Positions 28,099 through 63,217 of a stretch of 64,000 nt of DNA are shown one piece after another. Below the pieces are notes generated by a model. The model made no database searches. It saw nothing but the letters and a program-made list of their open reading frames with translations, and was not told the DNA's origin. Position 1 is the first letter of the stretch, and the number at the start of each line of letters is the position of its first letter. The translations under genes and the position numbers were made by a program. The stretch comes from Chaetoceros tenuissimus (Eukaryota > Bacillariophyta > Thalassiosirophyceae > Chaetocerotales > Chaetocerotaceae): positions 1,116,001 through 1,180,000 of the forward strand of contig BLLK01000020.1 of the NCBI GenBank assembly GCA_021927905.1. Reading direction: 5' to 3'.

Positions 28099-29214
28099 TT
28101 ACATGATGGGATTTGAAATCTTTCTCAGAATGCAAACTAATCGAAATGCTTCATCTTCACTGTTGACATCAACTTCGTCACTCAATGCACCTTGCATTCC
28201 AACAACCTCAAATCCAGCTATTCTTGCCAAGGCTTCGATTTCCTGAAATGTGAATAATCTCATGGGAACGACCTCTTTAACATTTTGCAAATCAGATTCT
28301 TCATCCTCTACGCCTTCTTCGAGAACCAATTCCATAGCAACAGTGAAGTCACGTACTTGGCGGATAGGATCAAATTTATCGTCGTCATCTCCCCAAATGA
28401 TCTTGAGTTCTCCATACTCTTCTCCATTCTCATCTTCGAGAGGCACTTCCCATCCATTTCTAGTGCACTCGACCATTGTAAAAGTCTCTCTTGGATGTGG
28501 TAACTCAATAGATAGGATACCCCCTTCTGTAAGAATGTTTGATAATGATGAAAAGCAGTTAATCACATCATCGTTCGTAGTCAAATGTTGCATACTTCCA
28601 AGTAAAATCCAAGCATTATCATATGACCCAGTTTTAAATGAACTAGATTCTGCCAATTTCCTCATATCTTGTTCAATATATTGAAATTTATCTCTCATTC
28701 CCCCAAAACCACGATCACCAAGTTCTTCATCTGCAACTTCGTTGGAATACTCAATCATATCCTTTGATATATCAACTGCTGTAGAGGATTGCACTTTGGA
28801 ATTAAAACATCTGAGAGCAGTAATCGCATGTCTTGCTGGACCTGCTGCTAGTTCAATGATACGCATTGGCTTCTCCTTTGCGCATGTAGCATATTTCTCG
28901 TACGCATCAATTAAGAATCTGACCTCTTCTTCATAGTTTCTGTATCCAAATGCAAGATCATACAAAGCTGGTCGAGAATAAATATTTCCTGCATCTTGTT
29001 TCACTTTTGTTTCTGGCTTTTCAGGTGCTTTACCAAACCCTGAGGGCGATGAAGAGTCAGATTTCTTATTCTTACGTGACATTGCCCCACTTCTTTTTGA
29101 AGCATGGAGTTGCATCCTGTTCGCGTATTTTTGTGGCGCTATTGCTTGTGGTGAAAATGCAACAGCAGAGCTGAGCAGACAGCTCGTGAGTAGAGATGTG
29201 TTCAAAATTTTCAT
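28099..29214 (-). CDS. SAM-dependent methyltransferase, probably plastid-targeted
   Basis: 371 residues from the ATG at 29214. The N-terminus (MKILNTSLLTSCLLSSAVAF, then SPQ) is a signal peptide with Phe at the cleavage site, followed by a basic Ser-rich transit-like stretch (SKRSGAMSRKNKKS), consistent with diatom plastid import. The class I methyltransferase fold follows: motif I IIELAAGPARHA, the acidic loop AVDISKDMI, YIEQDMRKLAE, and WILLGSMQHL with GGILSIELPHP. A second domain (TFQEIEALARIAGFEVVGM) is typical of small-molecule methyltransferases. The substrate is not recognisable. It is convergent with the nuclear-type gene at 26648. Confidence 0.85.
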   Translation of the reverse strand: MKILNTSLLTSCLLSSAVAFSPQAIAPQKYANRMQLHASKRSGAMSRKNKKSDSSSPSGFGKAPEKPETKVKQDAGNIYSRPALYDLAFGYRNYEEEVRFLIDAYEKYATCAKEKPMRIIELAAGPARHAITALRCFNSKVQSSTAVDISKDMIEYSNEVADEELGDRGFGGMRDKFQYIEQDMRKLAESSSFKTGSYDNAWILLGSMQHLTTNDDVINCFSSLSNILTEGGILSIELPHPRETFTMVECTRNGWEVPLEDENGEEYGELKIIWGDDDDKFDPIRQVRDFTVAMELVLEEGVEDEESDLQNVKEVVPMRLFTFQEIEALARIAGFEVVGMQGALSDEVDVNSEDEAFRLVCILRKISNPIM

Positions 29215-29547
29215 TTCCAAATATATGTATATGATGCCTCAATCTACACGTGAGTGAGGTTTGTTAGATTGATGAGTGTATTCTAACTACGTAATTCATG
29301 ACACACTAGACACGAGACACAAGACAGAAAAATGAAAAAATCGGGTGGCTGTGAAAAGATGAAAAGCGGTTACGTAGAGGCGGTTAAATAAAGATGTCTT
29401 GGTACAGTATTCCAATTACTTACGAGCTCTACGTGGAGTAGGTCTTCCTCATCCATCCACATCTTTCCACAGATCGAAACTATTTGTTCACATGTATTCC
29501 TTCCACAAATATTTCATCCATAATTGAAATACAAAAAGATATATATC
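29215..29547. other. Divergent intergenic region
   Basis: 333 bases between the methyltransferase start (minus) and the secreted protein start (plus). It is presumably a shared promoter. I see no specific site or gene. Confidence 0.5.
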
Positions 29548-33119: not shown

Positions 33120-36040
33120 ATGGCTTCTTTCTTCTTCAATAGCCTCAAAATTAGGTGTTACATATCACTTATTCTTGCTTGTATCCTTGTACCTCAGGCT
33201 CTTGCATTTGAAAGCAGCATGTTTACTTCAAGGGTGAGAGGAGTTTTCTTCAAAAATCACAAAAGCAGATTTTCTAGACCATTTGCAGGTTTTGGACTGC
33301 AATTGAGTAAAACTTCGAATGATCAAGGTATTGATGAGAATACAAATGAATACTTGGTTCAACAAAGATTAGCAGTCGAAGCTGCCAAACGTCAAACGCG
33401 AAAAGATGCATTAGAAGAAGACAAACAAAGAAATTTACGTCTAAAGCGTCTGCTACATACAGAAGCAAATGCTGAGTCGTCAGATGTGTCTGAAACTGGA
33501 TTTGCTATCCCAAAGATGTATCAAATTCGCGTCAGTGTTGATCAAGAACTTCGTCAAGAGTTGAAAATGAATGGCAGGGAAAAGAGAGGCAGAGTGTTTA
33601 TTGAAAAGGATACTGATGGTTGTCTTACTTTGAAAGGACTCAAATTCGAAATGCATGCATTCTTTAGAGCTCTCAAGAAAAGTACATATCTTTTGTCAGC
33701 AAATCTTCCGACAGTCTTGGATGATGGATCAATCTTTTCACCAGGAGATGAAAAATCAATGGTCGAGGGTGTTGATCCATACGCTGAATTTTGGGATATT
33801 CAAAGTGATGAAGACGTATTGAACACATTTCAAAAGGCAGATGAATTCTTCAATACATATAATAGTGAGATTGAAGAAGATGATGCGAAACGTCTAAAGA
33901 GACCATCTATTCTGATTCATGTGAGGAAGGACCCAAATGCTCCTCCTCCACCACCTCCTCCAGCATATCTTGAGAATATGGAAAATCCTAAAGAGACTAA
34001 CACTATGACCATGCTTTCATTCTATTCTTTCCCGCCAGGTGGGGTCAAAGATCCGGAAGAGTTTGCATTGTTTTTGAGAAAAGCCTGGAAACCATTCGAT
34101 GCTCTTGGTAGAGTTTATGTTGCAAAGGAAGGAATCAATGCCCAAATGAGCATCCCAACTAATGTGTAAGTATTTTGTAATTCAAAAGGTAATACGAATC
34201 ATGTGCAAAACATATACTAATCATCTCGATTACACAGTCTTGCAAACTTCAGACAGTGCTGTTTGGCTATTCCAGAGCTTGGAGAATATATGGAAAATGA
34301 TATTAACATTGACCCTATCCCACTAACTATGGAAGAATTCGCAGTATCTGGAGACATGGATGGAAAACCTTGTCCTCCATTCCGCAATTTGCATGTGAGA
34401 GTTCGTCAACAGATTGTGGCCGATGGGCTAGACCATGAACTAGACTGGGAGTCTGCAGGCTATGATATGCCGCCAATGGAATGGCATCAAAAGCTGAAAG
34501 AGGCGAGAGAAGCGAAAGAGTCTGGTAGGAAGAATGAGGCACCTCTTATATTTGACTGCAGAAATGACTATGAGACTTCTGTAGGTATTTTCGAAGGAGC
34601 AGAACCTCTCAACACTGAGAATTTCCGTGAAAGTTGGGAAGTTTTTGCAGAAAAGCTCAAGGATAAACCAAAGGATACTCCTATCATGACATATTGTACC
34701 GGGGGTATCAGATGCGTGAAGGTTGGGGCTTACCTTACACAAGAGATGGGTTTCACAAACGTATCACGACTAGCAGGAGGAATTATCGCTTATGATAGAA
34801 CATTGAATGACCAAGCACCTGAAGAAGAACCAATGTTCAAAGGAACTAATTATGTATTTGATGGTAGAGTTGGAAGAGAAATTACAAAGGATGCTCTTGG
34901 GGATTGTATCACATGTGGAGGTAAAACCAATTTACTGAGTAATTGTATGAATACTAATTGCCACAAGAGAATGGTACAATGTGACAAATGTAGAGATACT
35001 TTCTTAGGGACATGTTCCGAAACATGTAAAAACAGAGTTGAAAATAAAGAAAAGTCTTTTTTCGAAAGAAAAGCGCCAAGAAGTGCCGCGAAATGCGAGA
35101 CTCTTGATGATTATGCGCTTGCTCACTCTACAAAGCCAATGAATCTTTACGAAGAGATAAAGAAGAACACTGCAGAATTCATGGGATCTGGTTATCATAT
35201 GATTTCAGACACCGTACAGGGTCGTCTACTATGTAATCTAGCAAGTATGTCAAGAGAAGGTAGAGTTTTGGAAATCGGTGCTTTCACTGGATATGGTAAG
35301 AAAAAAATGTAAGATGTTATTGAAATTGAATTATAAATAAAAAGCTCAAAAAGTTTTGATTCTTACCGGATGTAGGTACATGCTGTTTCTTGGAAGGTGC
35401 AAACAACGCTGCACAAGCAATAGATTACGAGGCGACAGGAACAAGGGAAAAGGGACCTTTTGTCATGTCTTTGGAAAGAGACCCAAGAGCAATCGATCTG
35501 ACATCATCTCATGTTTCAATCATGGCTTCGGCGGGGCTTGGTGAGGAAGGTGCTTCAAAAGCTGCAGCAATGAGGTCATCTGGCTTATCAAGCGTCACTG
35601 ACTCGTCTTTGTCTTATTCATACGAAAAAGCAGGATGTGAGGTTGTAAAAGTTACTGATGCATTAGCCTTTGTCGAAGGTATCACTAATGGAATTGACAA
35701 TCAGGATGTCAATCCATTTGATATAGTCTTTATTGATGCCGACAAAACTCGGTTTTTGGACTATGTGGAGGCTTGTTTAGTAAACGACAAGTTATTGAAG
35801 AAGGGTGGTATCATGCTTGTCGATAATGTTCTTTGGAAAGGAGTTGTATTAGATGTAAATAATGGAACATTGGAAGACAAACCTGACGGCCTCGATGCTC
35901 AGGAAGTGAAGAAATCAAGACGAGCCCGAAAACTTGCGAACGCAGTACATGACTTCAACTCTGCAATTGTAAACGACGATAGAGTAGAAGTTCAACTTCT
36001 GAATATGCGCGATGGCATTTCTATCATTAGAAAGAAGTAA
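33120..36040 (+). CDS. Fusion of TrhO-like tRNA U34 hydroxylase and TrmR-like O-methyltransferase, plastid-type pre-sequence
   Basis: Three exons, 33120-34165, 34238-35295 and 35376-36040, with GTAAG...AG introns of 72 and 80 nt, give 922 residues in one frame. Residues 1-30 are a signal peptide ending ALA-FESS (Phe at the cleavage site, plastid type). Residues ~160-290 match nothing I know. Residues ~295-600 are a complete TrhO/YceA (UPF0176) protein: MLSFYSFPP, GRVYVAKEGINAQMS, FRNLHVRVRQQIVADG, rhodanese active site CTGGIRC (Cys near 502 and 508) and a Cys-rich zinc-like tail (CITCGGK, CDKCRDTFLGTC). Residues ~635-922 are a family-3 O-methyltransferase: RVLEIGAFTGYG (~690), VFIDADKTRF (~820), MLVDNVLWKG (~842) and RDGISIIRK, in the style of bacterial TrmR/YrrM. 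TrhO makes ho5U34 from prephenate-independent chemistry and TrmR methylates it to mo5U34. A single enzyme for both steps is inference. Confidence 0.85.
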
Positions 36041-36102: not shown

Positions 36103-39100
36103 TTAAATGATGTTGAATACCTTCTTGAGTTTGATCACAAGTCGCCAATCTTCGTTCTCTAGCTTGTCCTTGAAATTTTCTTTCAAAGCATCAATAGACG
36201 CTCGTGAAAGTGTGGAATATAGGGAATGAGTAGCATCAAATTGACGCCCGTAGGTGAGATTTGGATTAGATTCGTTCACAATCTTGATAGCAACGGAAGC
36301 TCCCTTTCTTGCAGTCTCTTGCTCCTTTCCATTCTGTTCGATAGAAGTAACCTTTCCTACATTAAGACCACCAAGAGCAGGTACACAAAGTGGGGTTCCG
36401 ACCTTGAGGATTCCTTCAACTACTTCAACTCCAATGATAATTGGATCTTTTTGGTTGAAGATATGTTGTGGAAGAATTCTACATACACTAGGGAATACTG
36501 CAACAGCAGCAGCATCTTGTCTCCTTTGTTCCATCAAATTCTCCATAAATCGTGTGAACTGATCGAACAAGTGATAAATGATATCGGCTGTGAATATTCT
36601 TACACCCATTTCCTCAGCATGCTCTCTTGCTTCATTACTAACATCAACATCGAAGGCAAGAATAGTTGCATACTCTGGCTTTCCCTTTTCATTCATGATG
36701 GAAATTCTGGTAACATCACGCTTATGAATTGCTCCAATTCCAACTGCACTGACAGGAATTGGTGGTTTGGTTTCTTCACGAAGGAATTGAAGAAGCGCTT
36801 CTAATGCTCCAAGAGTGGATGCTTGAACCATAACACCAACCTTATCAGTGTTCAATTTACCTTGAAGAGAAGTCAAATCAGACATAACTTCGGCCTTGAT
36901 GTCTTCTTCTTCATCGTCATCTCCAACGACGAGAACAGAAGTTCCAGCCATGACCTTTTCTAATCCATTTCCAATGATTTTCACTCCAAGAGCTCCCTTT
37001 ACTTCCTTGTGATGGATATAGTCAGCCTTGACACGCATTTCTCGGCTTGGAGGTGGCGTTAACAAACCTCTTATTTCTGCAACGACTGGACCGTCCAACG
37101 TACAGAATACTGCTCTGTCACCCTCACGGAGGTAACCGTTTACAACAAGAACATCAACAGTCATACCAAGTCCATCAATTTGCTTAACCTCCAATACAGT
37201 ACATTGTAGATTTGCATGCCACATGAGTTGACGCCAAAGCTTACGCTGAGCCATTTGACAAAGAAGTAACAAAATATCTTGAACACCCTCTCCTGATACT
37301 GCAGAGGTTGGCACAAGTGGTACGAAATCAGAATTTTCCCAATCTTCTTCGCCCATCTCCCAATAAATGTTAGAGTTGATACCATTTTCCTGCAACTGAA
37401 GCTTCGCATCAGCAGCACGAGAGCGGAATTCTTGAATGGTTCCCTCTGGCTGCTCTTTCAATGCTTCACGAATTGGTGTGTCTGGACAAGTCTTCCAATC
37501 ATAACAACGATCAACCTTGTTCAATGCAACTACAAATGGAGTTCCACGCTTTTTCAACATATTTAAACTTTCAATTGTTTGCTGTTCCAAACCATGCATC
37601 AAATCTACCACCAAGATTGCCACATCACACAGTGAAGATCCGCGTGATCTTAGATTTGTGAAAGATTCTAGAATGAACAAGGTTTATGAGTGAGATGACA
37701 TAACAGAAGAATCGAAACCTAACAATCTCCTCTATCAAGACTTACCGTGACCCGGGGTATCAATAACCAACATTCCAGGAATAGTGATGTCAAACTTCTC
37801 TGTATTTCTCAATTTGGTGGTCTGACTAATAAGAGTCTTTTGCTCAAAGTATGTCGCACCAATCTGCTGTGTGATTCCTCCAGCTTCTCCACCTTGTACA
37901 TTTGTTTTACGAATCTTATCCAAAAGCTTTGTTTTACCAGTATCTACGTGACCCATGATAACCGTAATTGGACAACGTAGATTATCTCTTGTTCTAGCTG
38001 CAAGATTTGCCTTTTCTTGCGCCTCACGCTTGACCTTTCCTTCTTGACGCTTCTGTTCTCTCAAAAGCTCTTGACGTTCCATTTCCTTCTGCTCTGCCAA
38101 AAATTTAGCTTGTTTCTCGGCTTCAATTCTTTCACGCTCTTTTCTTTCAAGACCAATCTTTCTTAGTCTCTCCGCTTCAGCTTTCTTTTCCTTTTCGATT
38201 AGATCTTCTTCTTCATCATCGTCAACCTTTAGTTCATCGAGTTTCGCGTCAAGATCGTCGAATCGACCATCGTCAGAGTCTGCATCCCAGTCATCTCCGG
38301 AGTCAGCATCCCAATCATCCTTTTCATCTTCTTCCTCCTTTTCTGGCTCAGGTTCAGGTTCAGCAGGTTTTTCTTCCTCTTTTGGAGTTTCTTCCTTTGT
38401 CTCTACTTCGTCTTCTTCCTTCTCCCAGTCCTCAACTTCATCTTCTTCCTTCTCCTCAGCAGGTGCTGGTTCTTCCTCTTGCTTTTCTTGGAATCTATTT
38501 CTTCTTCTTCTGTTGTCATAAACTGGTCTTTCTCTCTTTGGAGCATCATCTCCTCCTCCAACAACCATACCAGCTGCCTTCATTGCTTCAAGTCTTTGTC
38601 TAGCAAGAGCAGCCTTTTGTTTCTGCGCCTTTGTCATGTACGTTCCTTCACGCTTCTGTCTTTCAATCTTTTCCTGCTTCTTACGTTTCTTTCTTTCCTT
38701 CTCTTCTTCAATTCGCTTTCTTTCTGCTTCTTCTGCTGCTTCAATCTCTGCAATACGTTGGCGTTCAGCTTCTTCTGCTGCACGGATACGCTCTTCTTCT
38801 TCACGTTGCTTACGAAGACGTTCTGCAATCATTTTACCCTTTGCAGAAACCTAAGAATGACAAGAATATCGAAATAAATGAGATGTATGCATCAATTTTT
38901 GAAAAAAAAGAAACATTCTTACAAAACATACCGCTTTTCCTCCTCCACTGCTAGACTCTTCTTTATCTCCACCTCCAGCACCCTTCTTCTTCTTTTTTCT
39001 CTTCTTCTTGCCAGCTCCACCGCCTTCTTCATCAGCGGGTGCAGCTCCAGAAGCAGCAAGAAATGCCGCAGCAGCATCTGCAGCAGAAGATTCATCTTTC

Positions 39101-43388: not shown

Positions 43389-44465
43389 TTATGAATTAGA
43401 GTTTTTACTTTCCCCTTCGTCAGAATCATTTTCAACAGAAACATCTAATCCATCGCCATCAAAAATAGCCAACATTTCATTACATCTTTCAACAGCTGCA
43501 TAAATATTTTCGGGTGTCCAATCTTCTTTTGGCACAATATGATCCATTGTGAAATGACCTTGCTGTGTTCGAATGAGGCTTGTCATTGTTGCACACGTCC
43601 CAAGATTTTCTCCGAGATCCCTGCATAAAGATCGAATATAAGTACCACCACCACATTCTACATCCAGTCCAAAACAAGGTAGACCTTTCCCATTTTCATC
43701 TGTTGGTAGATATTCCAAATTATAAACCTCTACTTCTCTTGCTTCGATTTCAATATCATCAACAGTCTTTCCTTCTCGAGCTTGCTCATATAAACGTTTC
43801 CCATTTTTACGAATAGCACTAAAGATTGGTGGCTTCTGCATAATCTTGCCAGTAAAATCAGGAATCGCATTAATTATTTGTTCTTCCGTCACATGATCAA
43901 AATCCATTTCTTTTGTTCTATTTCCTTCCATGTCCAAGGTATTTGTCTCAAATCCAAGTTCAACTCCAGCTCTGTAACGCTTTGCACCAGTTAAATACTT
44001 TTGCAAATCTTTGGTCCCTTTCCCTATCCCAATCACAAGAACTCCAGTTGCAAGAGGATCGAGTGTCCCTCCATGACCAACAGATACCTTTCGCTTACTC
44101 TTTCTTGTTCTCCTCTTTGCCAATTTTGCACCACGTTCACGTGCATCTCTTTCCAGCATTCCTCTGATACATGCAACGACATCTTGTGATGTCCAGTCCA
44201 ATGGTTTGTAAACTGCACATAATCCTTCCGCAAGATGTATCGGTACATTCTCTGCTTCTGTAGAATTCGATGAACGATTATCATTTGATTTGCTATTTGT
44301 AGACTCAGCTGCGGTAAACATTATTGTTTGTGAAGATTTTGCTGCTGTTATTGTAGACATGAATCTATTCGATATTGGCTTGGAGATGAATGCATGAGTG
44401 CATGATTTTGATAGGTGAAGGAAACATTGAAGCGCCATAAATGAACATGCAAGTAATTTGTACAT
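43389..44465 (-). CDS. truB: tRNA pseudouridine-55 synthase, TruB family, organellar pre-sequence
   Basis: 358 residues, single exon, ATG at 44465. TruB isomerises U55 to pseudouridine in the T loop of tRNAs. The N-terminus (MYKLLACSFMALQCFLHLSK, then THAFISKP) is a signal-peptide-like stretch with Ala-Phe, followed by Ser/Arg-rich sequence, so plastid import is likely. The catalytic domain begins at GLCAVYKPLDWTSQDVV and has the conserved GHGGTLDPLATGVL with the catalytic Asp, YRAGVELGFETNTLDMEG, QKPPIFSAIRKNGKRLYEQAR and the GGTYIRSLCRDLGENLG loop. An inserted Arg/Lys-rich loop (KLAKRRTRKSKRK) lies just before the catalytic loop. Bacterial-type TruB rather than the nuclear Cbf5 type fits an organelle. 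The J-domain gene is convergent, with about 35 bases between the stops. Confidence 0.93.
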   Translation of the reverse strand: MYKLLACSFMALQCFLHLSKSCTHAFISKPISNRFMSTITAAKSSQTIMFTAAESTNSKSNDNRSSNSTEAENVPIHLAEGLCAVYKPLDWTSQDVVACIRGMLERDARERGAKLAKRRTRKSKRKVSVGHGGTLDPLATGVLVIGIGKGTKDLQKYLTGAKRYRAGVELGFETNTLDMEGNRTKEMDFDHVTEEQIINAIPDFTGKIMQKPPIFSAIRKNGKRLYEQAREGKTVDDIEIEAREVEVYNLEYLPTDENGKGLPCFGLDVECGGGTYIRSLCRDLGENLGTCATMTSLIRTQQGHFTMDHIVPKEDWTPENIYAAVERCNEMLAIFDGDGLDVSVENDSDEGESKNSNS

Positions 44466-44885
44466 AGTTACGTGCCAGGGACTATGAAAGCAAGTGTAAT
44501 TGATGACAAGTTGTAAAGATTGCGATATTGTAACTTAATGAAGAGAAATTTTTTATAACAATAATGCGTGTGACGAAAAATGAAACCAAAAATGAATGGT
44601 GGCAGGGCGAGATAGCAATAATCACGTCAAACGGCCAATAATAACGTTTCAAGCCACCTATGAAAGTAGTTGTTTGGCTATTCGCAAACTGTGTACAAAG
44701 TTTAGTAAGTGCACCCTCTATCGCACGAATGCAAGGAAAGAAGTTCTCTCACTTCGTTCTGACCACAAAACGCTTTGTTTACATGGTCATATCTTTTTCT
44801 TCTTTTACGAGTAGGTTCTTTTGACTTCTAACTAGAGTTATCTACACAGAGAGTCGACAAGAGGAAAGATATAAAAGCATCAATT
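44466..44885. other. Divergent intergenic region
   Basis: 420 bases between the TruB start (minus) and the myotubularin start (plus). It contains a 72-codon open stretch at 44596-44814 that I do not support. No site is recognised. Confidence 0.5.
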
Positions 44886-55785: not shown

Positions 55786-58656
55786 TTACCTTTTTTTCTT
55801 ACTACTCGCCTTTTTATTAGCAGCCTTTCTTTGGCGTGAAGAGGTAAACTTGCTTTTGGAGCCAGATTTTTTCTTTGCGGGAACAGGTGAATTCTTCTTT
55901 TGCACTTTTTCTTCAGTCTTCAAGGAATTCAGTGTATTCAACAAACTATTCCTAGAGTCTATCACGGTCTTTTCTGCTGTGTAATCAGAGTAGCTACCCC
56001 AATCCTCGTCAATAGAAGGGTAATCAAATATTGCGAGGTCCGACCTTTTCAAAGTGAGCCTCAATTTAGGAGTTCCTAAGGCCAATCCATAGTCTATATC
56101 CAAGTCAATAGCAACTTCGTCAAATCCAACATCATTTTGGTTATCACTGACAAAACCAATGTTACCTTCAAAATCCCCATTAATAATTGTTACCGAACTT
56201 CTTGGTTGCAACACATCAGATATTTTAACTATTTTCATTCCCTTCTCTCTTAGCATATCTCCTTTAGACTTGATAGCCTTTTTGACAAGTCTAAGCATTG
56301 ACAATGAGTCGCCAACAACGTCAAAATTATCTTTTCCGCTTTCTTTCATGGCAATAAGTATATTATCTAACTTTGACTCAACTTTGGACAATTGACTTTC
56401 ATACGATTTAGCAAGAGTTACAAGGGCATCTCTACAGAGAATGATATCTTTCCTATAGCTTTCAACAGCGATTGTAGCCTCCTCGTACCTATCTTTCTCA
56501 GCTTCCATAGCCTCAGTTATGGTGCGTAAATAGGATGCACTTTTATCCTGACTGGAAGCAATCAAAGCTGCAGCTCTATCGAGTACATCATCTGGTATTT
56601 TGGGACTTGCTCTTGCCGCCGCACTTAGGGCATACGAGTTACCTACAGTACCGTATACAAGTTTGTAGCTTGGTAATCGATATTGAGCATCATCAGATCC
56701 AACTTGAAGTAGTACAGAAGCTGATTCAAACCTATCATCTTCAAGTGACAAGGCTTTTAGCTGTGTGGAATGTGTAGTCACAATTGTTCTAGTTCTTCTA
56801 TTTTCAAGAATCTTTTCCAAAAACGCTTGGGCTATGCAAGCCGCCTGCGTCGGGTCTGTACCACTTCCAAGTTCATCAAGAAGTATCAGCGATGATGACT
56901 GTTTGGATGATTCTTCAATCTTCTGCAACACCTTCGAGAGAGAATTGAGTTGTGCCATGTAGGTTGATTCACCTTGTTCTAAACTCTGATGATCTCCCAC
57001 TTCTACCAAAATTTCATCAAAGAAATCACATCGAGTAACATCATTCATTTTGTATGTAGAGTCATCACGAGGCAAAGGTATTCCTAGTTTCGTCAACATT
57101 GCGCAGACACCAAATGACTTCATGGCTAAAGACTTGCCTCCACCGTTAACACCAGAAATCATCAAAGTATCTTTCCCATTTTCATCCCCGATGTATATGT
57201 CAACTGGTACTACTCTACTCCTACTTTTTGCAGCAAGTACTGGGTGAATAAAGTCCTTAATTTGAATGCGACCTTCGTCATGAATGATTGGTACAAATCC
57301 ATTTAGTGTGTATCCAAATGCTGCCCTAGCAAATATAGCGTCGAGCTTTGCCACGACGTCCAGTCCATGATTCATACTATTTGCTCCACGAATAATCGTT
57401 CCACTTAGATGATGAGTAATCTCATTACTCAGTGCTTCTATTTCTTTCCTAATACTTTGGATTTCGTTGCCAATTTTGACTATCTCTTGTGGTTCTACAT
57501 AGCAAAAGGAGTCAGTTTGACCTCGAATGATTCCGATCTTCTGGGCTACTTCTCTTGGTGCAGCAACAACTATTCTACCCTCCAACTCATACGGCTCTGG
57601 CTTCTTTCGTGTGAAACCACTTAATTGAGACACATATTTCTTATTACTGAAAAGCTTCTCCATTATTTTGTTCGTTTGGTCCATTAGGGCCTTTTCTTTT
57701 TGCTTCAAAATAGATAAATTGGGGAACTTTGCACTATTTAGCTCGAAAGCAAATGTTTGCATTCCACTAAACGTTTGAGATCCTTTTACAATACGGACAG
57801 TCTCTTCTATCTCATTGTAAATATTTTGCAACCCAGCAAAGTCATATATTTCCTTGAAAATCAATGAGAGATTAGGTGCTACTTTCTGAACCTGCTCATC
57901 GTCCGCCCATCTTTTGCATCCAATAATACGCTTCACAACTTGTTCAGCCTGTAATATATTTTCTAATTCAAGTGTTCCCGTAAATCCATTTAATACACTT
58001 CTTAGCCATTCATCGTCATCAGAGTTGGTATCTTCAATGGAAATACTCCATGGATTAGTACTTGAGCCATACAGTGGTGGATTAGGTACTGTTTTCTTGG
58101 ATTGCGATTTCAATGATGATCTGTTTCTAGTACCACTGGCCTTGTAATGTCCTCCAAGAACATCACTTGCTTCTTTGATCAAATCCCATTCGCGCTGTGC
58201 CTCCTCTATATTACCTGCTATCTTGATAATGAATTTGGAACTGTACAAGCTTCGACTATCTCTACCAAGCGCAGAACTAGAGAAAGTACTACCTCCGGCC
58301 ATGGAAGACAACAGTGCCTTTTTCTTGGAGTTGTTGTAATTTGTATAAAACTCATTCTTCTTTTGTGCATCATCTTCATGTGTGACAAGTTGCATAAATG
58401 CATCAATGGCTCTTTTCGTTCCAGCATGTTTGGCAACATTTTGCAATATGGGGTAAAGGTCTAAAGCATCTACTAATTCTTTTCTTATTTTTGTGCTTTC
58501 TTCCTGCTCGGAACTCATTGACAATGGATAGTGGAAATTTCTTGATCGGACAGCTTTCCTTGGAGTGGACAACAAAAGTCCGCTACTTGGAGGACTTGTG
58601 AAAGGTTCTACTTGTATCCATAGTAAACATGAACAAAAAGCAAATAATATTATCAT
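55786..58656 (-). CDS. mutS2: MutS2-type DNA-structure ATPase, organellar pre-sequence, no Smr domain
   Basis: 956 residues, single exon, ATG at 58656. The N-terminus (MIILFAFCSCLLWIQVEP, then FTSPPSSGLL) is a signal peptide followed by Phe and a Ser/Arg-rich transit stretch, consistent with plastid import. The core is MutS2. The clamp/lever helices (about 70-480) include GRIVVAAPREVAQKIGIIRG. The ATPase follows with Walker A GVNGGGKS (near 503; usual GPNTGGKT), FFDEILVEVGDHQSLEQGES, Walker B LILLDELGSGTDPT (near 587) and TTHST. Bacterial MutS2 acts on recombination intermediates and collided ribosomes. The C-terminal Smr nuclease domain of bacterial MutS2 is not visible; the protein ends instead in a Lys/Ser-rich tail (KKKSGSKSKFTSSRQRKAAN). 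Confidence 0.9.
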   Translation of the reverse strand: MIILFAFCSCLLWIQVEPFTSPPSSGLLLSTPRKAVRSRNFHYPLSMSSEQEESTKIRKELVDALDLYPILQNVAKHAGTKRAIDAFMQLVTHEDDAQKKNEFYTNYNNSKKKALLSSMAGGSTFSSSALGRDSRSLYSSKFIIKIAGNIEEAQREWDLIKEASDVLGGHYKASGTRNRSSLKSQSKKTVPNPPLYGSSTNPWSISIEDTNSDDDEWLRSVLNGFTGTLELENILQAEQVVKRIIGCKRWADDEQVQKVAPNLSLIFKEIYDFAGLQNIYNEIEETVRIVKGSQTFSGMQTFAFELNSAKFPNLSILKQKEKALMDQTNKIMEKLFSNKKYVSQLSGFTRKKPEPYELEGRIVVAAPREVAQKIGIIRGQTDSFCYVEPQEIVKIGNEIQSIRKEIEALSNEITHHLSGTIIRGANSMNHGLDVVAKLDAIFARAAFGYTLNGFVPIIHDEGRIQIKDFIHPVLAAKSRSRVVPVDIYIGDENGKDTLMISGVNGGGKSLAMKSFGVCAMLTKLGIPLPRDDSTYKMNDVTRCDFFDEILVEVGDHQSLEQGESTYMAQLNSLSKVLQKIEESSKQSSSLILLDELGSGTDPTQAACIAQAFLEKILENRRTRTIVTTHSTQLKALSLEDDRFESASVLLQVGSDDAQYRLPSYKLVYGTVGNSYALSAAARASPKIPDDVLDRAAALIASSQDKSASYLRTITEAMEAEKDRYEEATIAVESYRKDIILCRDALVTLAKSYESQLSKVESKLDNILIAMKESGKDNFDVVGDSLSMLRLVKKAIKSKGDMLREKGMKIVKISDVLQPRSSVTIINGDFEGNIGFVSDNQNDVGFDEVAIDLDIDYGLALGTPKLRLTLKRSDLAIFDYPSIDEDWGSYSDYTAEKTVIDSRNSLLNTLNSLKTEEKVQKKNSPVPAKKKSGSKSKFTSSRQRKAANKKASSKKKR

Positions 58657-58980
58657 GATTGCAAAGTTCCAGTATTGTATCTTATGTATATGAGTATGGA
58701 AGAAACATGGATACCTTATTCATAAAATCAAAGAAAACCACCTCATCCAACTCTCGTCGCTTTGATGGATGATTGATGTCACGACATTGGCTCATTGGCT
58801 CTCATTCATCATCCAGTTTTAGCTATAATGACGTCAGACAAACCGATTTCTAACGGTCCAGATGTTGTTGCAGTAGTGAATGTGAACAGTGAAGTATGAA
58901 GTATTGTAATCCCTTCTTTCTCGTGATGTTATCCATACATTCAACTAGAAATAAACTTGATCTTTTTGAGGAAATATAAA
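58657..58980. promoter_or_regulatory. Divergent promoter region with TGACGTCA site and inverted CCAAT boxes
   Basis: 324 bases between the MutS2 start (minus) and the pterin-dehydratase-like start (plus). It contains TGACGTCA at 58829-58836 and two ATTGGCT copies (inverted CCAAT) near 58785-58800. I see no gene. Confidence 0.6.
58829..58836. promoter_or_regulatory. CRE/bZIP-type core TGACGTCA
   Basis: A perfect 8-base CRE, 145 bases before the ATG at 58981. The flanks differ from the 12-mers at 10355 and 23091. Confidence 0.45.
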
Positions 58981-61014: not shown

Positions 61015-61495
61015 GTTTCTGCCTTTTGTTTTGGCTGTGAATTATTTTCTTCTTTGCTGTCATTATCTTCATCAGCTCTATCGATAGCACAATCAATTAG
61101 CAAATTTTTGGCATGTAGTTCTTGCGATGTGATGCTTTGACCAAAATTAGGACTGTATTCTTTACTGTTCTTCTTTTCAACATTTTTCATTTATTCTTTT
61201 TAAATATCATCTTTTTAAAAAAGAGTTGTAACAGTAACAGAAAGTTTGATCATAGCAGGAAACCTTATAGATATATCTGATATTTAGAAATGTGAGGGAA
61301 ATTGTCTCATTATTTCTTTCGAGTCAATTAGACTAGAAGTTCTCATTTCATTGAATGGCCAGGAATGATCTGAAAACTTGAAACGATGAGAAACAAAAAC
61401 AAAAAGAATCCAAAATCAACTTTTCGTGATATCATACAAAACTCTCAAAATATTTACTCACTTCGCCCACATCACTAGCTGTTGGGCTCTGATTC
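61015..61495. other. Intergenic region, with a short minus-strand open frame into the tRNA
   Basis: The tRNA terminator lies at its left end. On the minus strand an open frame from the ATG at 61190 (MKNVEKKNSKEYSPNFGQ..., then CAIDRADEDNDSKEEN) reads charged, protein-like sequence, then runs into the tRNA and ends at 60981. It has no recognised domain and may be a chance frame or a remnant. The right part is the promoter of the HPPK-DHPS gene. Confidence 0.4.
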
Positions 61496-63217
61496 ATGAA
61501 GCTGAACTTTGCTCTTCTTCCCTCCCTACTTATAATAATGATTTCAAGGAATAACATGAGAGTTTCGGCGCATCTTTCAAGATATGTCAACAAAAATAGA
61601 CTTGCGTCATTATCATGTACTTCATCATTTCTTTCTCGCTCTACTCAACAGAACTGGGCTGATACGGTGAGGAACCAATGTCGAACAATAAGTACAAACC
61701 AAAATGTCATTTTGAGTATCGCACATGGAGGAGACCAGAAACTATTATCCAGAGACATCACCACGAATGTAGATGGATTCAAGAAAGTATATGTTGCCGT
61801 TGGAGCAAATATGGGAGATAGATTCACAAATTTGCTTACTGCGTTGAGGATGTTGAATAGCACGTCAGCAGATGATGTCGAAGAAACTTCTGGGCTTAGT
61901 AGCTCACCAATTCGTGTCATTAGAACCTCCTTTCTAAGAGAGACTGAACCTATGTATGTCACAGATCAACCATCTTTCCTGAATGGTGCAATTGAGATAG
62001 ATACGCAACTATCGCCACATTGCCTTCTCAAACGTTTAAAAGACATAGAAAAGAAAATAGGTCGAGACTTAAATAATGGTCAGAGATATGGACCTAGGCC
62101 AATTGACTTGGATATTATCTATTACGGAGTACGTGATCAGGACAAAGTGAGCTTTGGAGGAGACATTGTAGATACAGAAAATTTGGAAGTGCCACATCCT
62201 AGAATGCAAGAAAGGGATTTTGTGCTATCACCACTTTGCGATTTGAACCGAAATGTTATTCACCCTACCATTAACGAGAGTGCGGAAAAAATGCTATTAC
62301 ATTTATCATGTGACTCAAATAAATCAAAAGAAGAGGAAGGACCACCTGCATACATGGTTCTACCATTGCCAAGAGGTCGTATGCTTTCTTTCAACAAAGT
62401 CCATATAATGGGGATATTGAATGTAACACCGGATAGTTTTAGTGATGGTGGGAAATATAAAGCTTCTGTAGACTTAGCTGTGAAGAAAGCTCTGCAGCTT
62501 GTTGAAGATGGCGCGACAATTATTGATATTGGAGGAGAATCTACAAGACCGGGAGCGAAGGAAGTTGAGGTTGATATTGAGATGCAAAGAACAATCCCTG
62601 TGATTCAAAAACTGAGAGAGGTATCAGATGTGGCAATATCAATAGATACACGACACGCACTTGTGGCTAAGGCGGCTATCGAAGCAGGTGCAGATATTGT
62701 AAATGATGTATCGGGAGGGACATTTGACCCTGATATGTTTGCCACGGTTGCAGATTTGAAAGTTCCAATAATCATCATGCATATGAGAGGAACTCCAGAA
62801 ACAATGCAAAGTTTGACACAGTATGAAGACGTTGTTGCTGAAGTTTCGGATGAACTAATGAGACAGTCTCAATTCGCCGAAAAGGCGGGCATTCCGTTGT
62901 GGCTACAAGTACTTGATCCTGGTATTGGATTTGCAAAAGATTTGGAGCAAAACTTACTTCTCATGAAACACTCCAATACAATGCGTCGTTTAGTAAATGA
63001 TATACCTCTACTTCTTGGTCCTAGTAGAAAGGGGTTCATTGGTAAAATTACCGGGGAGGAAGTTGCATCAGAACGCGACTTCGGTACTCTCGCAGCATGT
63101 ATTAGCTCTCTATTTGATCATAATGGAAAACTTGCCCCGACAATATTGAGAGTGCATAATGTCAAAGGAATCAAGCAAGGCATAGATATAATAGAGGCAA
63201 TTTCCAAAGCTAAATAA
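61496..63217 (+). CDS. Bifunctional HPPK-DHPS (folate synthesis), organelle-targeted
   Basis: 573 residues, single exon, ATG at 61496. The enzyme pyrophosphorylates 6-hydroxymethyl-dihydropterin and then condenses it with p-aminobenzoate, two successive steps of folate synthesis. The N-terminus (MKLNFALLPSLLIIMISRNN, then RVSAHLSRYVNKNRLASL) is Arg/Ser-rich, as in the mitochondrial plant enzyme; MISRNN, 17 residues in, is an alternative start. The HPPK domain (about 100-265) has VAVGANMGDRFTNLLTALRM, the RETEPMYVTDQPSFLNGAIE segment and the GQRYGPRPIDLDIIYYG metal site. The DHPS domain (about 300-570) has IMGILNVTPDSFSDGG, IIDIGGESTRPGA, INDVSGG-like VNDVSGGTFD, DPGIGFAKD and LLGPSRKGFIG. Both domains look intact. 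Confidence 0.96.
   Translation: MKLNFALLPSLLIIMISRNNMRVSAHLSRYVNKNRLASLSCTSSFLSRSTQQNWADTVRNQCRTISTNQNVILSIAHGGDQKLLSRDITTNVDGFKKVYVAVGANMGDRFTNLLTALRMLNSTSADDVEETSGLSSSPIRVIRTSFLRETEPMYVTDQPSFLNGAIEIDTQLSPHCLLKRLKDIEKKIGRDLNNGQRYGPRPIDLDIIYYGVRDQDKVSFGGDIVDTENLEVPHPRMQERDFVLSPLCDLNRNVIHPTINESAEKMLLHLSCDSNKSKEEEGPPAYMVLPLPRGRMLSFNKVHIMGILNVTPDSFSDGGKYKASVDLAVKKALQLVEDGATIIDIGGESTRPGAKEVEVDIEMQRTIPVIQKLREVSDVAISIDTRHALVAKAAIEAGADIVNDVSGGTFDPDMFATVADLKVPIIIMHMRGTPETMQSLTQYEDVVAEVSDELMRQSQFAEKAGIPLWLQVLDPGIGFAKDLEQNLLLMKHSNTMRRLVNDIPLLLGPSRKGFIGKITGEEVASERDFGTLAACISSLFDHNGKLAPTILRVHNVKGIKQGIDIIEAISKAK

Follow-up and report, generated by a model that had tools for sequence, protein, structure and literature searches.

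A diatom gene joining a TrhO-type tRNA hydroxylase to a family-3 O-methyltransferase, a candidate single-chain enzyme for wobble 5-methoxyuridine

Genes joining yceA to trmR were reported by Sakai et al. in 2019 from Phaeodactylum tricornutum, Phytophthora sojae, and P. ramorum, species labelled there as bacterial (PMC6599085). These fusions served the authors as a clue to the hydroxylase TrhO, and yceA was then shown to make 5-hydroxyuridine at position 34 of tRNA (ho5U34). Here we describe a gene of the same make-up in the diatom Chaetoceros tenuissimus, located at 33120-36040 on the plus strand of a 64,000-nucleotide stretch of contig BLLK01000020.1 (assembly GCA_021927905.1, positions 1,116,001 to 1,180,000; hereafter the window). 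The initial annotation of this gene knew of no described eukaryotic fusion, a view overturned by the three stramenopile reports, and the bacterial label may explain why they were overlooked. A fusion of this kind is already in print, and the methyltransferase half of ours is not plainly TrmR.

TrhO is widespread in eukaryotes, where Sakai et al. suggested a 5-oxyuridine-type (xo5U) modification (PMC6599085). According to a review, ho5U occurs in both bacteria and eukaryotes, and a survey of coconut tRNAs lists ho5U34 together with a chloroplast-predicted TrhO homologue, as a listing and not as a stated detection. The methylated product, 5-methoxyuridine at position 34 (mo5U34), is described only from bacteria in the literature covered; mass spectrometry has revealed mo5U in RNA of the cyanobacterium Synechocystis (PMC12860351). 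Our search of the open-licence literature yielded neither a study devoted to the fusion nor one on plastid mo5U, and no account of mo5U or of TrhO activity from a eukaryotic organelle.

We consider it fairly likely that the Chaetoceros gene encodes a bifunctional, single-chain modifier of the tRNA wobble uridine, converting U34 to ho5U34 and then to mo5U34. The TrhO half would bind NYN-decoding tRNAs bearing U34 and would hydroxylate C5 of this uridine with O2. The second half, a family-3 O-methyltransferase (OMT), would methylate the resulting 5-hydroxyl with S-adenosylmethionine (SAM) and a divalent metal. We infer both activities, the tRNA substrate, the order of the steps, and the compartment from sequence comparison. 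Substrate channelling between the two steps, as the initial annotation proposed, is likewise conjectural.

The coding sequence opens with an ATG at 33120, and its stop codon ends at 36040. Three exons (33120-34165, 34238-35295, and 35376-36040; 1046, 1058, and 665 nt) are separated by introns of 72 nt (34166-34237, GTAAGT...ACACAG) and 80 nt (35296-35375, GTAAGA...TGTAG), which were placed by sequence and reading frame. Both introns are of the GT...AG type, and splicing yields 922 residues plus a stop, in agreement with the two frame-keeping introns and 923 codons first proposed. Sequence of the TrhO type extends to about residue 613 (35030), and methyltransferase sequence begins at about residue 633 (35088). 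A stop-free frame at 34221-35312 holds both boundaries, placing the junction within exon 2; this exon also encodes most of the SAM motif VLEIGAFTGYG (residues 692-702). Because the domain junction sits in one uninterrupted frame, the fusion does not depend on the intron calls. The DNA sequence itself establishes the fusion, and a single transcript for both halves is very likely.

The first half has the complete TrhO architecture, with every domain above its Pfam cut-off. It comprises an acylphosphatase-like UPF0176_N domain split by intron 1 (PF17773; residues 297-408, 34008..34415, +; 53 bits, cut-off 26.2), a Rhodanese domain (PF00581; residues 447-534, 34530..34793, +; 38.9 bits, cut-off 22.2), and Rhodanese_C with the cysteine-rich TrhO tail (PF12368; residues 550-613, 34839..35030, +; 59.4 bits, cut-off 26.9). 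The latter two were also placed by alignment, that of the Rhodanese domain being to E. coli TrhO, for which the MG1655 sequence was used. The best PDB match by sequence was the tRNA uridine(34) hydroxylase 9j5o (1.4e-27), which we take to be the B. subtilis enzyme. Alignment to E. coli TrhO also located the active loop CTGGIRC (residues 502-508, 34695-34715, +). Four loop residues essential for hydroxylation by the E. coli enzyme, C200, T201, G203, and R205 (PMC6599085), are conserved as C502, T503, G505, and R507. The E. coli basic pair K112/R114, part of a putative tRNA-binding sheet, corresponds to R403/R405. The assignment of the first half as TrhO-type is borne out by these domains, the 9j5o match, and the retained catalytic residues.

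The second half carries a Methyltransf_3 domain (PF01596; residues 792-922, 90.2 bits, cut-off 22). Its N-terminal part, residues 633-701 with the first base of codon 702, occupies 35088..35295 (+), as judged from a 2hnk match beginning at residue 633 and from the frame 34221-35312; the remainder of the domain and the stop codon, placed by Pfam and alignment, occupy 35376..36040 (+). The SAM motif, the D...DN metal site, and the conserved lysine are all kept in the alignment. Putative metal-site motifs are FIDADK (residues 820-825; D822, K825) and the DN of DNVLWKG (residues 851-857; D851, N852), with ligands assigned by motif from a paper on the enzyme Rv0187, whose own sequence lies outside our alignment. 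All four motifs named in the initial annotation (these three and CTGGIRC) are present, and the fusion it described is confirmed by the exon structure, the Pfam domains, and the junction within one exon.

The description of this half as TrmR-like held only in part, as it is a Methyltransf_3 enzyme with a SAM motif and metal site, but profile scores, the FIDADK motif, and the trees weaken the link to TrmR. Searched alone against the PDB, it matched 2hnk best and 3cbg next, and the match to B. subtilis TrmR (5zw3) was much weaker (2.8e-6). Apart from 5zw3 and 2gpy, PDB chains carry presumed species labels here, that of 5lhm (Kocuria) being doubtful. Profiles were built from four Bacteroidota-type, four bacterial caffeoyl-CoA O-methyltransferase (CCoAOMT)-like, four TrmR-type, and three plant sequences. 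The half scored 128.5 bits with the Bacteroidota-type profile, whose rows had been retrieved with the fusion half as query and are biased in its favor, followed by 82.7 bits for the bacterial CCoAOMT-like, 64.8 for the TrmR-type, and 52.9 for the plant profile. Bacterial relatives were sought in Bacteroidota. All four TrmR-type references have FIDAAK at the position of FIDADK in the fusion. FIDAAK is not a clean TrmR marker, as it also occurs in the Bacteroidota OMT L005, with FVDAAK in L121.

A 45-row tree put the fusion outside TrmR without settling its position further. A 46-row tree, composed of 26 of the earlier 45 rows and 20 new Bacteroidota proteins, placed it among the Bacteroidota-type enzymes (89/79) on a very long branch and with moderate support at best, as sister to L003 (89/83), an enzyme from a TrhO-bearing genome. 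The same tree kept it outside TrmR (100/99) and outside a clade of 3cbg, 3r3h, and plant enzymes (97/89). The fragments L029 and L033 had been dropped from 33 loci before tree-building. In approximately unbiased (AU) tests, a grouping of the fusion with TrmR gave p values of 0.035 for the 45-row set, 0.395 for a second test with the Anaplasma row dropped, and 0.255 for the 46-row set; we do not rely on the first, as the rejection disappeared once this long row was removed. A grouping with plant CCoAOMT was rejected (p 0.018), and these enzymes form a separate clade in the 46-row tree. The trees and AU tests, which take up the comparison with TrmR and with catechol and caffeoyl-CoA enzymes proposed at the outset, reject the plant CCoAOMT grouping and do not join the half to TrmR. 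Orthology with TrmR is neither supported nor rejected by these comparisons; kinship with Bacteroidota-type enzymes appears to be the best placement, moderately supported at best and not firm.

Among Bacteroidota, enzymes of this family track TrhO. We scored 296 genomes for TrhO (Rhodanese_C, E<=1e-3) and for the methyltransferase (PF01596, E<=1e-15), finding Rhodanese_C in 155 (152 above cut-off) and Methyltransf_3 in 189. Of these genomes, 144 had both, 11 had only TrhO, 45 had only the methyltransferase, and 96 had neither (Fisher 6e-30, a statistic that, like the others here, ignores the phylogenetic kinship of the genomes). Expressed as proportions, PF01596 occurred in 144/155 genomes with TrhO versus 45/141 without. 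The corresponding counts in a strong-COX1 stratum of 228 genomes were 144, 11, 43, and 30 (p 2e-9; 144/155 versus 43/73), where the stratum was defined by a strength threshold picked after viewing the scores, COX1 itself being found in 283/296 genomes. Very strong, CCoAOMT-like PF01596 matches (E < ~1e-65, a split chosen after the scores were seen) were accompanied by TrhO in 0/19 genomes, compared with 144/170 of the other PF01596 genomes (p 4e-14). Seven of these 19 proteins were fetched, and all seven fell into the CCoAOMT-like clade of the 46-row tree. The first 20 genomes, reached via OMT matches, included five with Rhodanese_C above cut-off.

As a separate observation, 13 of 30 Bacteroidota TrhO frames are 455-501 residues long (L074, L081-L083, L088, L091-L093, L095, L097, and L099-L101), and the other 17 are 339-384. 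In L074, the sole long frame aligned, the extra part is C-terminal.

The insertion loop of this OMT family shapes the substrate pocket and varies with substrate (PMC6543040). In the fusion, the end of this loop and the following helix form a basic segment, VKKSRRARKLANAVHDFN (residues 879-896, 35906..35959, +), with a net charge of +5. Over the 18 residues up to the conserved Asn, this was the highest charge of 45 aligned enzymes, a feature noticed post hoc. TrmR-type enzymes reached +4, +4, +3, and +1, plant CCoAOMT +3 and +2, a plant norbelladine enzyme -2, and the rest at most +1. Counted from DN up to but excluding the conserved Asn, the loop spans 45 residues in the fusion versus 25-31 in 12 other references (8k1f was not measurable and was left out). 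An enlarged basic loop of this kind could hold the anticodon loop. Rv0187, a family-3 OMT set apart from TrmR by its authors, methylates free ho5U and not ho5U-tRNA (PMC6543040). Rv0187 thus shows that the chemistry is open to the family and tRNA specificity must arise elsewhere; in the fusion it would come perhaps from the loop or from the TrhO half.

The N-terminus suggests a destination. Residues 1-29 (33120..33206, +) read by eye as a probable signal peptide ending ...PQALA, directly before Phe30, and residues 30-70 (33207..33329, +) form a transit-peptide-like stretch with 7 K+R, 2 D+E, and 9 S+T. For diatom plastid import, Phe at +1 is among the main marks, with F, W, Y, or L allowed, together with a basic transit peptide (PMC4329603). 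By eye and by composition, the N-terminus of the fusion resembles this pattern, with a probable signal peptide, Phe at +1, and a basic, transit-peptide-like stretch, and the plastid is the probable destination of the Chaetoceros protein. Residues 71-296 (33330..34007, +) appear from PDB and Pfam searches and AlphaFold to hold a long predicted helix, a region of unknown fold, and a proline-rich linker. Residues 1-290 gave no significant match in the PDB (best E 3.4) or in Pfam (best E 0.16, below cut-off), in keeping with the ~290 N-terminal residues with an unknown region noted initially. When residues 30-348 alone were folded by AlphaFold from the single sequence, the mean predicted local distance difference test score (pLDDT) was 41.5 and only a helix at ~73-117 was fairly confident. 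A search of IMG/VR with residues 296-922 of the fusion, and with its N-terminal region, gave no confirmed match.

A number of results weigh against the bifunctional mo5U34 enzyme as proposed. The TrhO half scored 153.4 bits (E 7e-45) with the NCBIfam TrhO equivalog NF001133, missing the cut-off of 170. TrmR came only third by profile, and a single clade of the fusion with all Bacteroidota-type rows was itself near rejection (AU p 0.057). The basic loop is absent in the Bacteroidota relatives (highest +1), and the charges of plant CCoAOMT mean that charge alone is not proof of RNA. At 37 Bacteroidota TrhO loci (30 plus 7, two of the latter below the Rhodanese_C cut-off), no such OMT lay within 0.4-1.4 kb on either side, and no fused TrhO frame occurred among the Bacteroidota matches listed (longest 501 aa). 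The co-occurrence statistics also carry the limits of kinship and of the late-chosen split given above. Oomycetes have no plastid. Because they carry the fusion, it is not safe to extend a plastid role to every member of the family; a plastid-only role is disfavored, and the ancestral or an alternative site may be mitochondrial. For this protein, the plastid-type presequence of the initial annotation, with its ALA-Phe signature, is a plausible reading.

These points bear differently on the readings that compete with ours. In one of them the enzyme makes mo5U34 in mitochondria, alone or alongside plastids, and its plastid-like presequence either was misread or serves both. This reading gains from the Phytophthora fusions; we find it rather doubtful, as a hydrophobic stretch ending in ALA is followed here by Phe and then by a basic, S/T-rich stretch poor in acids. 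Somewhat less probable still, and in our view unlikely, is a division of labor in which the TrhO half makes ho5U34 and the OMT half acts on a small catechol-like molecule, with the chain shared for targeting or regulation only. The half does resemble cation-dependent OMTs, some of which methylate catechols, its best PDB matches are 2hnk and 3cbg with TrmR far down, it has FIDADK as in the catechol-type references, and its insertion loop differs in length from that of TrmR. Against this stand the rejection of plant CCoAOMT grouping, the basic loop, a nearest bacterial type that co-occurs with TrhO, and a partner tRNA hydroxylase that yields the kind of hydroxyl such OMTs methylate.

Two further alternatives carry little weight. 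The TrhO likeness would be misleading if the first half performed rhodanese-type sulfur chemistry instead of hydroxylation. This half does have a rhodanese-fold core with a cysteine in the active site, and weak MoeB/MoeZ matches were found far under their cut-offs; the complete set of TrhO features, among them UPF0176_N and the Cys-rich tail, the 9j5o match, and the TrhO-essential residues make this reading very improbable. That the gene model joined two genes in error is scarcely credible, with the domain junction inside a single stop-free exon and fusions of the same make-up reported in three other stramenopiles. The bifunctional wobble-uridine modifier remains the account we favor.

A broader reading is tentative. 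Pontibacter is a genus of Bacteroidota. Sakai et al. credit it with trmR (PMC6599085), and this gene is probably a Bacteroidota-type Methyltransf_3 gene. It is possible, though we would not count on it, that the OMT half belongs to a second, non-TrmR class of ho5U34 methyltransferase, whose Bacteroidota-type cousins track TrhO, and that the stramenopile pair forms one organelle mo5U34 enzyme acting on eukaryotic organelle tRNAs.

Elsewhere in the window, an eIF5B/IF-2-type GTPase gene (36103-38850, -; two open frames) converges with the fusion gene, leaving only ~60-90 bp between their coding ends. A second tRNA-modification gene, encoding a TruB-type pseudouridine synthase with an N-terminal extension, is found at 43389-44534 (-). 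A SAM methyltransferase at 28099-29238 (-) has a signal-peptide-like start ending AVA-F, by eye an ASAFAP-like presequence, and a MutS domain V protein at 55786-58719 (-), presumably MutS2-like, has a possible Phe-type plastid presequence by eye. At 61493-63217 (+), a single open frame encodes both HPPK and dihydropteroate synthase (Pterin_bind), a fusion of folate-pathway enzymes.

A hydroxylase and a methyltransferase in one gene name both an expected product, mo5U34, and a place to look for it, the organelle tRNAs of diatoms and oomycetes. The gene also points to a knockout target in a genetically tractable alga. It casts doubt on the habit of naming every family-3 OMT in TrhO-bearing organisms TrmR. 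If the proposal is true, the protein would be a eukaryotic mo5U34 enzyme and, more boldly, would represent a second class of ho5U34 methyltransferase.

Compared with the fusions of Sakai et al., the Chaetoceros gene likewise combines TrhO and an OMT, there called trmR, in one stramenopile gene, and we infer orthology from this shared architecture. With bacterial TrhO it shares the domain order, the CTGGIRC/CTGGVRC loop, the basic pair, and the Cys tail, at identities of 34.8% to E. coli TrhO, 29.5% to 9j5o, and 39.3% to the Bacteroidota copy L074. The aligned bacterial TrhOs are free-standing, whereas the fusion adds ~290 N-terminal residues and a C-terminal methyltransferase. B. subtilis TrmR (YrrM, 5zw3/5zw4), likewise a family-3 OMT, shares the SAM and metal motifs and has a basic segment before the conserved Asn, but its identity is 22.5%, its motif is FIDAAK, its loop is shorter, and its profile score is below that of the Bacteroidota type. 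Bacterial CCoAOMT-like enzymes (3cbg, 3r3h, and 2hnk) and plant 1sui share the Pfam family and a FIDADK-type motif; the 3cbg, 3r3h, and plant enzymes form a separate clade (97/89) to which the fusion does not belong, the plant grouping being rejected. Closest by profile are Bacteroidota-type Methyltransf_3 proteins (e.g. L002, L003, L016, and L110), which reach up to 36% identity and, in the examples examined, are unfused and without the basic loop.

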